From positions 434,001-498,000 of the forward strand of contig NZ_LNBE01000002.1 of assembly GCF_001445655.1 (NCBI RefSeq): 64,000 nucleotides of DNA, in the 5' to 3' direction. The stretch is from Streptomyces roseifaciens. GTDB lineage: Bacteria; Actinomycetota; Actinomycetes; Streptomycetales; Streptomycetaceae. Under the pieces are notes generated by a model. That model searched no databases, had not been told where the DNA came from, and worked only from the letters and a program-made list of their open reading frames with translations. The position numbers were made by a program, and so were the translations under genes. Each line of letters opens with the position of its first letter. Within the stretch, counting starts at the first letter, position 1. Shown here in pieces: positions 28,260 through 31,279 of this stretch.

Positions 28260-29426
28260 CTATGAGGTCACGCTGACGGGTACGACGTTGCCCGGCGAGT
28301 CCAGCCAGACCCGTTCGCCGTCGCCGTCCACGGTCAGTCCGAAGCGGTTGAACCCCGGCCGTCCCTGGTCGGCCCACCAGCGGTACGCGGCCTCCACCTC
28401 GTCCCAGAGTCGCCGGGGTCCTGACTGGTAGACCTCGAACTCTCCCCGACCCTGCTCGTAGTCGGCCGTGGCCCACGACGTGACCGCCGTGTCCCGGAGC
28501 CACAGCGTGTACGACCCGTCCGGGTAGGACTCCATCCACGGGAACGCGCCGGGGACCTGCACCCCGATGGCGAACATGACGGCCCAGTCTCCAACGTCTT
28601 CCGGGGAAAGAGCGGTCGTGCTGCGAACGCCATCCGCCGGCCACTGCCGACCCTTGAGGTATTCGCGGACGTGCTCCCGCCGCGTGCGCTGATCACGCAG
28701 ACGCATGAACGCAGACGAGCCGACGAACCGCCCCGAAGCCGAACCGTCGTCGGCGACTTCGAGGCGAACCACTGCCTCTCCGCCGTACGTCGGCCCCCAC
28801 GGCGCGACGATGAGACCGCCTGGTTTCGTCTGCGTGATCCATTGGTGGGGGACACTGCCGATGGAGCATGTGGCAATGACGCGGTCGTACGGGGCCTCAC
28901 TGGCGTAGCCCTGCGCTCCGTCCCCGATGACCGACACCGGCTTGTATCCGTTCGCCTCAAGACGGCTGCGCGCCTTGAATGCGCTGTCCGCGTCCACCTC
29001 CACGGTGACGACGTTCTCCGCGCCGATCCGGTGAGACAGCAGCGCGGCGTTCCAGCCGGTACCGGTGCCGATCTCCAACACCCTCTGGCCCTGCTCGACG
29101 CTCAGTGCATCCAGCATCGAAAAGACCATGGTGGGCATGGAATTGGAGCTCGACGGGGTCTTGCCCCTGCCGGGGCCGGTGTACGTTCCGTCGTCCCATT
29201 GAGTCGTGATCGGCGCGTCACGGTAAACGGCCTGCCACCATGCTTCAGGTTCCTCGCGGCGGATCACGCGGTCACTCTGCCGATTCATCCCAGCACGACC
29301 GGGCCAGATCACATCAGGCACAAACAGGTGACGGGGCACTGCCTCGAAGGCAGGCAACCAATCGCTTTTGAGCGCTCCGGCTTCCATGAGCGCGGAGGCG
29401 AGCCCCTGTGGACCCGCCTCCTCCAT
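28260..29426 (-). CDS. PIMT-like O-methyltransferase, RiPP-associated type
   Basis: A 388-residue SAM-dependent enzyme homologous to protein-L-isoaspartate O-methyltransferase. The SAM site is RVLEIGTGTGWNAALL with VVTVEVDADS behind it, and the IMT-like block is YDRVIATCSIGSVPHQWI. PIMT repair enzymes are about 215 residues; this one has about 150 extra at the C-terminus, ending GRPGFNRFGLTVDGDGERVW and WLDSPG. A C-terminal motif like this marks RiPP-associated homologues that methylate Asp so that an aspartimide forms (seen with lasso peptides, graspetides, lanthipeptides and imiditides). The ATG at 29426 lies 17 bp after the peptide stop; a TTG at 29441, one base after that stop, is an alternative. 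It is probably coupled to the peptide gene. Confidence 0.82.
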   Translation of the reverse strand: MEEAGPQGLASALMEAGALKSDWLPAFEAVPRHLFVPDVIWPGRAGMNRQSDRVIRREEPEAWWQAVYRDAPITTQWDDGTYTGPGRGKTPSSSNSMPTMVFSMLDALSVEQGQRVLEIGTGTGWNAALLSHRIGAENVVTVEVDADSAFKARSRLEANGYKPVSVIGDGAQGYASEAPYDRVIATCSIGSVPHQWITQTKPGGLIVAPWGPTYGGEAVVRLEVADDGSASGRFVGSSAFMRLRDQRTRREHVREYLKGRQWPADGVRSTTALSPEDVGDWAVMFAIGVQVPGAFPWMESYPDGSYTLWLRDTAVTSWATADYEQGRGEFEVYQSGPRRLWDEVEAAYRWWADQGRPGFNRFGLTVDGDGERVWLDSPGNVVPVSVTS

Positions 29427-29442
29427 GCTGTGCGCGTTCAAG

Positions 29443-29577
29443 CTACTTACCGTCCGCCGGGTCCTTGCCATCGTTCGTGTTGCCGCCCTCGTCGGAACCG
29501 CCCCCGCCGTGCTTGTTGCCGCTGTTGCTGTCGTCCTGCGGGTTACCTTCGTCAAGCATCGTCAACCACCAAGCCAT
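29443..29577 (-). CDS. Candidate RiPP precursor peptide, 44 residues, Asp/Asn/Gly-rich
   Basis: ATG 29577 has GGAG eight bases upstream and the frame runs 44 codons to TAG. The peptide starts MAWWLTMLDEGNP and then becomes very polar: 7 Asp, 5 Asn, 10 Gly, no Cys, only 3 Ser and 2 Thr. Two Asp-Gly pairs lie near the C-terminus (TNDGKD at 34-39, ADGK at 41-44); Asp-Gly is the sequence most prone to aspartimide formation. It lies directly before the PIMT-like methyltransferase. Lack of Cys rules out a lanthipeptide. A role as its substrate is inferred from position and composition. There is no recognisable homologue known to me. Confidence 0.65.
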   Translation of the reverse strand: MAWWLTMLDEGNPQDDSNSGNKHGGGGSDEGGNTNDGKDPADGK

Positions 29578-29604
29578 GACGCTGACTCCATAGACGCAGT
29601 GTGC

Positions 29605-29629
29605 CGGTACGGAGACCATCCCCGTACCG
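29605..29629. promoter_or_regulatory. Putative operator upstream of the peptide gene
   Basis: CGGTACGG (29605-29612) and CCGTACCG (29622-29629) are a perfect 8 bp inverted repeat with a 9 bp spacer, about 30 bp before the peptide ATG. The left arm with flanks, GTGCCGGTACGG (29601-29612), recurs at 29719-29730. A seven-base match, CGGTACG, also occurs at 31319-31325 upstream of the XRE regulator. This fits binding by that regulator. Confidence 0.55.
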
Positions 29630-29867
29630 CCGTGCGTTGGTACAGCCGCCCGGTCGCCTCACCGCATCGGGCGGTGTCCGTCACTTGAATGACCGGACGG
29701 GGGCTGGTGCCTGCCCCTGTGCCGGTACGGCGGGGCTTCCCTCAGGTCAGCAGCCAGGGCGATGCACTCACGGCCGTCCTCCGGCGCGCCCTGTCAGCGT
29801 CAGTACGCCTCACGTTGCGCTGCATGGGGCACCCTGCTCCGGTCTGCGGGTTGATGACCACGCTGAC

Positions 29868-29913
29868 TCCCTGAGTCCGTTGAGTAGGTCTGAACGACGG
29901 TAGGACTCAGGGA
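29868..29913 (-). terminator. Inverted repeat after the XRE regulator gene
   Basis: TCCCTGAGTCC (29868-29878) and GGACTCAGGGA (29903-29913) form a perfect 11 bp stem with a 24-base loop, 113 bp downstream of the regulator stop. It could end that transcript, or be a binding site. Confidence 0.5.
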
Positions 29914-30025
29914 TGTTGAGCGTCACGAGCGTTTCGTAGCAGCTTGCCACCCCGGTGTTGGCGACCCATACGCAGGGCAGCAGAGGCCCGCTCGGCAGGA
30001 GCCCAACTACTGCGGAACGCGGCAG

Positions 30026-31279
30026 TCAGGCCGTGACCCCCAGCAGTGACATCATCCGACGCATTTCGCCGGTGAGGGTCCTCTTGCGCTTCCTGGCGAT
30101 GCGTTCCATTACATCCGTGGCGGTCCGCTGATGCCGAAGCCATTCGCCGTTCACGTACTCAATGGCCGTCAACCGCTCCATCGCGTTCTCATGATCTCCG
30201 ATTTTCGAATAAGCGGTTGCTACGGTCAGGCGGTGCCGGTTCCATTCTTTGTCGGTTTCAGGGACTCCGGTGGCCTTCATCGACCTGTCAGACAGCGGCG
30301 CCTGTCCTGTCGATTCCTCGATCACGCGGTACGGGTCACCACCTTCTTTGATCAGCTCGTCTTCAAGCCCCTTCATCGTGGCAACCTTGAGGTCGAATCG
30401 GCCGTACCGGTGTCGCGCATCAGCGGACTTTGTTCCGAGCGCAGATGCGGCAGAGGCGGCAATGCGTCGGGCGTCTGTCGCGTGATCTTCTCGGTTGTTC
30501 CGCACGGCTGCGGCTGCGGCTTGGAGTGCCAACCAGCCCCAGACTGCCAGATGTTCGGGAGTAGCCTTCGAAATGCGGGGCTCGATATGGTCTGCTGTTT
30601 CGACGGCCAAGTTTTCCGCGTCATCGAAGCGACCTTGTCGTAGCAGCAGCCACGACATGATGACGATTGCGTACGCTGCCGTGTTCGTATCGTTTACCTC
30701 TTGTGCGTCACGGATGGATCCGGACAGGGCGTGGTAGGCAAGGTCGTATTGCCGAACCTGCGTCAGGTATCGGCCACCTAGCAAGTAGGCTTCGGCGCGC
30801 ACTGAAAGCGCCTTATCGTGTTCGCTACCGTGATCATAGTAGGACACGGCCGAATTAGAATCACTGATGATCTGAGGCAGTGTGGTTGCCACAGATCCAA
30901 ACTTGTCCGAGTCGTAGGCTGCAGACCCTCGTCGTACCACATCAAGGAGGGCCGGTAGACCCGGCTCTTGCTCGGGAGTGTCCATCACTGGGGCTGCGAA
31001 GCCGATAGCGGGGGTGAGAGCATTTCGCAGTTCAACGAGGCCGACCTTTGTCGGGTCCTCTTCTCGGACGGGAGCGGGAGTGTCGGACGCCATCAACTGT
31101 GACGTCTTCACATGCAAGGCGCGGGCGAGCAGATGCAGAGTCTCGATGCGGACGTTTCCGCCCTGCTCCAGTTTGGCCACTGTGGACGGCGCGACTCCAG
31201 CGGCAAGGGCCAAGGCCTCCTGAGTGAGTCCCGCTGTGCGCCGGTGCTTCTTGACGTTCTCCCCGAGTTCCTTCGACAT
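30026..31279 (-). CDS. XRE-family regulator with C-terminal TPR-like region
   Basis: A 417-residue regulator. The N-terminal HTH is ELGENVKKHRRTAGLTQEAL with GVAPSTVAKLEQGGNVR. The rest is helical with tetratricopeptide-like repeats (YDLAYHALSGSIRDAQEVND, RFDDAENLAVETADHIEP, YSKIGDHENAMERLTAIEY), a form common in Streptomyces regulators that sit beside small secreted or RiPP-like genes. Codons ending in A or T are more frequent than in the surrounding genes, suggesting horizontal origin. GGGGAG lies very close to the ATG. It precedes the peptide-methyltransferase pair on the same strand and probably controls it. Confidence 0.85.
   Translation of the reverse strand: MSKELGENVKKHRRTAGLTQEALALAAGVAPSTVAKLEQGGNVRIETLHLLARALHVKTSQLMASDTPAPVREEDPTKVGLVELRNALTPAIGFAAPVMDTPEQEPGLPALLDVVRRGSAAYDSDKFGSVATTLPQIISDSNSAVSYYDHGSEHDKALSVRAEAYLLGGRYLTQVRQYDLAYHALSGSIRDAQEVNDTNTAAYAIVIMSWLLLRQGRFDDAENLAVETADHIEPRISKATPEHLAVWGWLALQAAAAAVRNNREDHATDARRIAASAASALGTKSADARHRYGRFDLKVATMKGLEDELIKEGGDPYRVIEESTGQAPLSDRSMKATGVPETDKEWNRHRLTVATAYSKIGDHENAMERLTAIEYVNGEWLRHQRTATDVMERIARKRKRTLTGEMRRMMSLLGVTA

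Follow-up and report, generated by a model that had tools for sequence, protein, structure and literature searches.

A two-gene peptide-methyltransferase cassette of imiditide/type I pamtide kind, probably linked to exchangeable XRE-type regulators, in Streptomyces and its phages

The window analysed here, a stretch of 64,000 nucleotides (nt) from Streptomyces roseifaciens (contig NZ_LNBE01000002.1, positions 434,001 to 498,000), holds an open reading frame (ORF) of 44 codons between a gene for an XRE-type regulator and a gene for a methyltransferase, hereafter PAMT, related to the isoaspartate repair enzyme PIMT. The locus raises three questions: whether the ORF is a gene, whether its product is modified by the enzyme as in the ribosomally synthesised and post-translationally modified peptides (RiPPs) known as imiditides or type I pamtides, and whether the regulator governs the pair. 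We consider, with a probability of about 0.74, that the peptide and PAMT genes form a two-gene cassette of imiditide/type I pamtide kind, which the neighbouring XRE-type regulator controls.

The first-pass annotation, made on the letters of the window, had described the ORF at 29443-29577 as having a good ribosome-binding site and an unusual composition, and a recount agreed with it: a GGAG lies 8 nt ahead of the ATG, and the 44 residues include 7 Asp, 5 Asn, 10 Gly and no Cys, with Asp-Gly pairs at 36-37 and 42-43. The statement that the ORF directly precedes a C-terminally extended methyltransferase, carrying GRPGFNRFGLTV and WLDSPG, was also correct, the peptide stop codon and the methyltransferase ATG being 16 nt apart. 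The features are the following.

28260 to 29426, minus strand: PAMT (P0002), RiPP-type PIMT homologue of 388 residues, by profiles, alignment and structure model
28356 to 28376, minus strand: WXXXGXP motif, W351-P357, in the PAMT C-terminal domain, by alignment; motif named in PMC13001092
29055 to 29069, minus strand: GTGTG, S-adenosylmethionine (SAM)-binding motif, PAMT residues 120-124, by alignment; motif role from PMC13001092
29443 to 29577, minus strand: gene of the putative precursor peptide (P0001), 44 residues, by conservation, alignment and dN/dS
29467 to 29472, minus strand: Asp36-Gly37 codons, methylation/aspartimide site predicted from conservation
29578 to 30025, minus strand: regulator-peptide intergenic region, putative and expected site of a regulated promoter
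29586 to 29589, minus strand: GGAG, ribosome-binding site of the peptide; hereabouts begins, at other loci, the DNA common to related cassettes
30026 to 31279, minus strand: regulator of XRE type, 417 residues (HTH_3, E 6e-11), its C-terminal part helical; putatively controlling the cassette

The peptide gene and its methyltransferase

We considered two sets of sequences, namely 392 genomes of Streptomyces, the genus of the window, and 54 loci (L008-L061) gathered by enzyme similarity from GTDB genomes which, by their titles, belong to Streptomyces, Kitasatospora, Streptantibioticus and Streptacidiphilus. Closely related species among these rows are not independent, and the Fisher values are descriptive. 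In the 392 genomes the peptide had 31 matches at E <= 1e-3, in 29 genomes, and a PAMT of the same clade was present within 150 nt downstream of all 31. By motif search, a homologous ORF was located in the same position in 54 of the 54 related loci, with a start codon and a string resembling a ribosome-binding site in 52. We considered as clade PAMTs those at least 54% identical and near full length, scoring the top four candidates per genome; of the resulting 44, 31 had a peptide match beside them, 12 a divergent homologue (with start codon and ribosome-binding site) and one a C-terminal remnant alone. The expectation that the peptide would be conserved beside the enzyme in other genomes was hence borne out, and no clade methyltransferase lacked it outright. 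One broken copy (G012:C1:8346881, 62% identical over residues 83-344 only) was left out of the 44; it has an in-frame peptide upstream.

In 80 ungapped coding blocks of 24 codons, we counted 62 DNA versions against 16 protein versions, with a pN/pS of 0.22 and a median pairwise dN/dS of 0.16. The peptide coding block is under purifying selection, and the 44-codon ORF is a conserved gene. It had been supposed that so short a peptide would escape many gene callers, which proved wrong: it was called on a Streptomyces plasmid (WP_328973816.1) and in five phages, all as 'hypothetical protein'. In PHROGs the peptides had no match. At three loci (L031, L034, L092) either no start of the peptide stands out or a stop codon interrupts it close to the end, and the PAMT is still long and similar. 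Some peptides, mainly of Kitasatospora (L032, L036-L038, L040, L047, L061), begin with an N-terminal KHGGG.G.G that looks duplicated from the NKHGGGGS block.

The enzyme matches PF01135 (PCMT) and phrog_13505, and scores 349 bits against TIGR04188 (ATP-grasp-system methyltransferase), below the model cut-off of 380. Its AlphaFold2 model (pLDDT 87.7) consists of a PIMT domain and a C-terminal beta/alpha domain, with 1DL5 as the best PDB match (E 7e-19), that is the T. maritima PIMT, given in the main text of PMC10787088 as the sole solved enzyme of the clade. The WXXXGXP motif reads W351-ADQ-G355-R-P357, where, among 29 aligned PAMTs, W351 is invariant and both G355 and P357 are kept in at least 90%. 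One branch in a tree of 81 enzymes (SH-aLRT 94) splits the window type from a sister type. Sequence and model together identify the enzyme as a PIMT homologue of the RiPP type that has a C-terminal domain. A scan of a defence-system library returned only generic similarity to methyltransferases and to helix-turn-helix (HTH) proteins.

Other enzymes of this kind were seen around the same material. The S. roseifaciens genome has two more PAMTs, 50% and 43% identical (L002 and L003), directly after small Gly/Asp-rich ORFs, that of L002 being of the Pro-rich type; two shorter-matching PIMT-like enzymes (L004 and L005) each follow an ORF of 38-39 residues with RQSGDG(Q/E)VGGPYSSPGDPGNPMP, possibly, from the sequence, another peptide-enzyme pair. 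In G225:C1:5610906-5613496 (L105) a second PAMT converges with a window-type cassette, and L036 has two PAMT genes within 5.5 kb.

The predicted target residue and the relation to type I pamtides

Among 75 distinct window-type peptides, Asp36 is conserved in 74, Gly37 in 70 and Asp42 in 47; Asp16 (74), Asp15 (73) and His23 (74) are also kept. The sole exception at Asp36 is L104, apparently through a shifted alignment. Deletions have arisen naturally in two forms, L014 having lost the QDD stretch and L026 the KHGGGGSDEGG stretch; both retain NTNDGQ.PADGR, and DGxxP is present in 69 of the 75 peptides. As to the sister PAMTs, 40 loci were considered, with enzymes 43-52% identical to that of the window: an ORF passing a filter on Gly/Pro/Asp composition precedes the enzyme in 35, the other five being without a usable ORF: L209, L215, L217, L239, L242 (false ORF, discarded). 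Pro-Asp-Gly occurs in 33 of these 35 ORFs and PDGxxP, comparable to the DGxxP of the window-type peptides, in 16. Most sister PAMTs are thus located behind Pro-rich, type I pamtide-like ORFs. Because of the conservation of Asp36, of the deletion forms and of the Asp-Gly in the sister ORFs, we infer that Asp36-Gly37 is the modification site. Both Asp-Gly pairs had been proposed as targets by the first-pass annotation; the pair at 36-37 is favoured, whereas that at 42-43, and with it Asp42 as the main target, is disfavoured (47/75 against 74/75).

The systems nearest to the window locus are the type I pamtides/imiditides, represented by SpaA-SpaM of S. sparsogenes and NmaA-NmaM of Nonomuraea maritima. 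Like these, it consists of two genes, with a Gly/Asp-rich, Cys-free precursor of about 45 residues directly before a C-terminally extended PAMT, a conserved Asp near the C-terminal part and, in most cases, a basic last residue. The traits by which the class is recognised, i.e. a C-terminal PAMT domain and a paired small precursor in which an Asp close to Gly/Pro is highly conserved, are found here. Unlike type I pamtides, the window peptide is Pro-poor, has a His-Gly4 block, is net negative and is nearly invariant; the 75 peptides contain on average 30.8% Gly, 12.7% Asp and 4.2% Pro, with a mean net charge of about -4, and the Pro-rich sister ORFs are likewise net negative (-2.7). The window subfamily differs in this way, and also by its linked XRE-type regulator and its carriage by phages, from type I pamtides as their main-text descriptions give them, the published set having 1414 members. 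It differs from type II pamtides (cysimiditides) in having neither a CxxCxGxG zinc ribbon nor any Cys in the peptide, and from graspetides with a PAMT (group 13) in having no ATP-grasp maturase in the window cluster. A genome search confined to ATP-grasp and lanthipeptide dehydratase types of maturase placed no primary RiPP maturase in the locus. The assignment to an imiditide-type locus thus stood as to the kind, given the PIMT-type enzyme and the constant pairing; as to composition, the peptides are rich in Gly and Asp but do not share the Pro-rich character, and the modification itself would follow by analogy. We consider the locus as imiditide/type I pamtide-like, with an unusual Pro-poor Gly/Asp/Ser/His precursor, a placement that the sequence evidence supports as to kind.

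Upstream regulators and carriers of the cassette

The XRE protein of the window had been taken as the third member of the locus. By tblastn a homologue of it is present in only 8 of the 54 loci (14 of 54 in a looser single-linkage cluster), and we rejected it in the role of conserved third gene. What is nearly constant at that place is an XRE-type regulator, the family of which varies. For this count we used an HTH profile made with 29 HTH domains encoded elsewhere in this genome, hence independent of the locus flanks, and the 50 loci with a flank of at least 3 kb. An XRE-type HTH was found within 3 kb upstream in 46 of the 50 loci and downstream in 3 at E < 0.1, and in 41 and 2, respectively, at E < 1e-3 (Fisher 9e-20 for the asymmetry, related loci not being independent). 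These figures supersede an earlier count of 50/50 against 3/50, for which partly flank-derived profiles were used. HTH_31 occurs in 76 places in this genome, so that about 2.6% would be expected per 3-kb side. At the sister loci the HTH is upstream in 26 of 38 and downstream in 4 of 39 (21 and 4 at E < 1e-3), so that the upstream link extends, less strongly, to those loci of the genus that resemble type I pamtides.

The regulators are of several kinds, i.e. HTH_31 with DUF5753, HTH with helical repeats (two kinds) and HTH with a weakly DUF5919-like part, and occur in both orientations upstream of the cassettes. In its model, the window protein starts with an HTH and is wholly helical in its C-terminal part, in which it is like the RRNPP regulators (PlcR, PrgX, ComR). 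This fold resemblance is weak: the best structural matches include PlcR, PrgX and other tetratricopeptide repeat (TPR) proteins, none at E <= 0.001, and the query-normalised TM-scores are below 0.5 among the matches listed. The RRNPP reading is for this reason weak; the DUF5753- and DUF5919-like regulators of the sister loci are of other make. Relatives of the window XRE protein away from PAMTs (L165-L167, L169-L171) lie upstream of ORFs with a VLAG..P(V/I)LVHN-like string, which we take to be typical of the Hint parts of polymorphic toxins.

On a careful PAMT tree with 51 loci labelled by regulator type, we counted 17 changes of type, and 15 of these changes are among the four multi-member types, for which the least possible number is 3. 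A quick tree had given 18 changes over 53 labelled loci, but it included two frame-broken rows, both absent from the careful tree; L110, the same place as the broken copy mentioned above, was excluded from the trees. The well-supported branches alone force fewer: when each type is taken separately, 7 gains or losses for c0 and 4 each for c2, c7 and c5. The types are clustered on the tree (shuffled mean 23.5), and therefore inheritance also plays a part. We then compared the DNA upstream of cassettes. Where the regulator types differ and the cassettes are 78-94% identical (27 locus pairs), the median length of common upstream DNA is 12 nt, with at least 300 nt in only 2, while the 38 same-type pairs have a median of 768 nt and reach 300 nt in 24. 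The common DNA starts between -60 and +40 nt from the peptide start codon in 24 of the 27 different-type pairs. For L008 (S. albus subsp. chlorinus), L010 (S. capoamus) and L011 (S. musisoli), similarity climbs from near chance close to the ribosome-binding site, the cassette is 91-94% identical, and similarity stops about 50-140 nt past the enzyme gene, with separate shorter similar patches further upstream. Peptide and enzyme behave as a two-gene cassette, and the common DNA begins near the peptide ribosome-binding site.

The same exchange is seen in phages. The enzyme (58-59% identical) is present in five Streptomyces phages with eight records between them, namely PapayaSalad, Austintatious, Alderaan, Bioscum and Ididsumtinwong, and is directly preceded by the peptide in all five. 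The regulator beside the cassette is an HTH_3 protein of about the size of the window XRE in PapayaSalad, HTH with DUF5753 in Austintatious and Bioscum (the Ididsumtinwong region being 99.8% identical to that of Bioscum), and HTH with a DUF5919-like part in Alderaan. The exchange is cleanest between PapayaSalad and Bioscum, which are 86% identical up to the regulator, unalignable over the regulator gene and the adjoining intergenic DNA, and 94% identical over a stretch that opens shortly ahead of the first small gene and takes in the peptide, PAMT and tail genes. Alderaan and Austintatious also differ from PapayaSalad in the regulator, share long flanking stretches with it at 86-95% and lack its integrase stretch; Alderaan has been described as without an integrase and possibly lytic (PMC7650747). 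Four relatives without the cassette were inspected, SV1, Picard, Mojorita and Tubberson (L200-L203). Between lysis genes and integrase, where the cassette would stand, they have a DNA-binding protein (annotated HTH in two of the four), a 'histidine kinase' and small genes. This arrangement is presumably reminiscent of whiJ/abaA loci. In Tubberson, a cluster-mate, immunity repressor and Cro are described as separate genes (PMC12243558).

Among IMG/VR contigs, L195 carries the peptide and L196 matches the S. albus locus L051. In L196 a recombinase gene (57% to the PapayaSalad integrase) is followed by an XRE gene, a small gene, the peptide and its PAMT, and then by a probable endolysin (by eye) and by tail genes. 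When 13 protein probes from PapayaSalad and L196 were run against 57 sequences, phage-like flanks were found only in L051 and L196, and L056 gave one weak small-ORF match; phages of other kinds would escape these probes, and with them a possible prophage origin of the window locus. The plasmid mentioned above carries the cassette with an HTH-annotated protein upstream.

Alternative explanations and proposed mechanism

Several observations weigh against a regulated type I pamtide-like cassette. No upstream HTH was found in 4 of the 50 loci at E < 0.1 (L014, L028, L029, L034), in 9 of 50 at E < 1e-3, and in 12 of the 38 sister loci. The family of the window XRE protein is mostly away from PAMTs, with 7 of 50 matches adjoining a clade PAMT (by eye). 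We found no direct-repeat operator in the intergenic region of the window or in three phages, and no sigma-70-like promoter in that region of the window. Type I precursors are described as Pro-rich (16.8%, against 4.2% here) and, in the review PMC13001092, as strongly positive, against a charge of about -4. The extreme conservation of the supposed core is, furthermore, unlike that of a diversifying antibiotic RiPP.

The upstream XRE genes could be there by coincidence, cassettes and XRE genes alike being gathered in accessory regions, with no control of the cassette by the regulator. XRE genes are abundant, as the 76 HTH_31 places show, and the window family is mostly elsewhere, often beside unrelated genes. 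We regard coincidence as unlikely, since it does not accord with 46 upstream against 3 downstream in 50 loci at the expected 2.6% per side (by the HTH_31 density of this genome), nor with a regulator and intergenic DNA that cannot be aligned between PapayaSalad and Bioscum while their flanks are 86% and 94% identical. A similarly small chance is given to the peptide being a small regulatory protein or a leader peptide, with the PAMT modifying another protein of the cell. This would suit an almost invariant sequence (16 protein versions from 62 DNA versions), and small genes beside Streptomyces XRE regulators often encode partners, e.g. DUF397 proteins (PMC6262351); however, none of the 31 matches in the 392 genomes stands without a PAMT, the conserved Asp-Gly is common to the Pro-rich ORFs of sister PAMTs, and SpaA-SpaM, a type I pair of the same layout, is reported to react (PMC10787088).

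If the locus belonged to a graspetide or another RiPP, a primary maturase would be encoded elsewhere and the PAMT would act secondarily on a cyclised peptide, as could be suggested by TIGR04188 being the best NCBIfam model of the enzyme (at 349 bits against 380). We rejected the graspetide reading and hold this whole group of explanations very improbable, because the genome has no TIGR04187 ATP-grasp maturase above the cut-off: two weak matches and the only frame found for a lanthipeptide dehydratase are on contig C3, not on C2 with the window, and the representatives scanned from recurrent neighbour clusters, which do not include every neighbour, contain no maturase. Least probable of all is an ordinary isoaspartate repair enzyme with a small ORF before it by chance; PF01135 and the PIMT-like fold would fit it, but the RiPP-type C-terminal domain with WXXXGXP, the constant peptide partner and the joint mobility would not.

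In the cassette reading, which we prefer, the XRE-type regulator would decide when the cassette is transcribed and the ribosome would make the acidic 44-residue peptide. The PAMT would hold it via the C-terminal domain and methylate the Asp36 side chain, and the ester may close spontaneously onto the Gly37 backbone amide to give an aspartimide (-18 Da), which would stay or open mainly to isoaspartate. The peptide as substrate and this chemistry are proposed after SpaA-SpaM and NmaA-NmaM (PMC10787088, PMC13001092). Control by the regulator is suggested by its position, by the exchange pattern and by the precedent of WhiJ9, which binds the DNA between iosA and whiJ9 and is required for iosA to be activated (PMC10294661). 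The WhiJ-BldB-AbaA/IosA loci described there are like the present one in having an XRE regulator beside a variable cargo gene, and unlike it in that here the cargo would be a peptide with its modifying enzyme and several XRE types serve. A likeness by layout alone exists with the transcription factor-small ORF (TF-smORF) modules of prophages (PMC10432266), where a phage-borne transcription factor is beside a small ORF and dissimilar factors have the same layout; the small proteins of those modules act by inactivating the cI repressor, and the present cassette has a modifying enzyme in addition.

Because of the near-invariant sequence, the XRE link and the phage carriage, a regulatory or intracellular role seems to us preferable to that of a diversifying antibiotic. 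More tentatively, and with doubts exceeding our confidence, pamtide-PAMT cassettes might be interchangeable effectors of XRE loci, both in Streptomyces and in the phages of this genus: the regulator would sense a signal and release the cassette, and the aspartimide or isoaspartate peptide would regulate development, lysogeny or competing elements inside the cell (or in siblings), rather than act as a classical antibiotic. Aspartimide-only RiPPs would then have, for the first time, a defined biological setting.

The main texts of PMC10787088 and PMC13001092 mention no regulators, transcription or phages for pamtides/imiditides, their supplements and the original imiditide paper being outside this statement, and the 2026 review (PMC13001092) considers the linking of aspartimidylated RiPPs to biological function as the bigger challenge. 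The present findings extend the 'two-gene cluster' picture of these main texts. The class gains a candidate regulator, of XRE type and upstream of most copies, and a vehicle, namely S. venezuelae phages with three different regulators, whose carriage of the cassette makes the function of such peptides testable.

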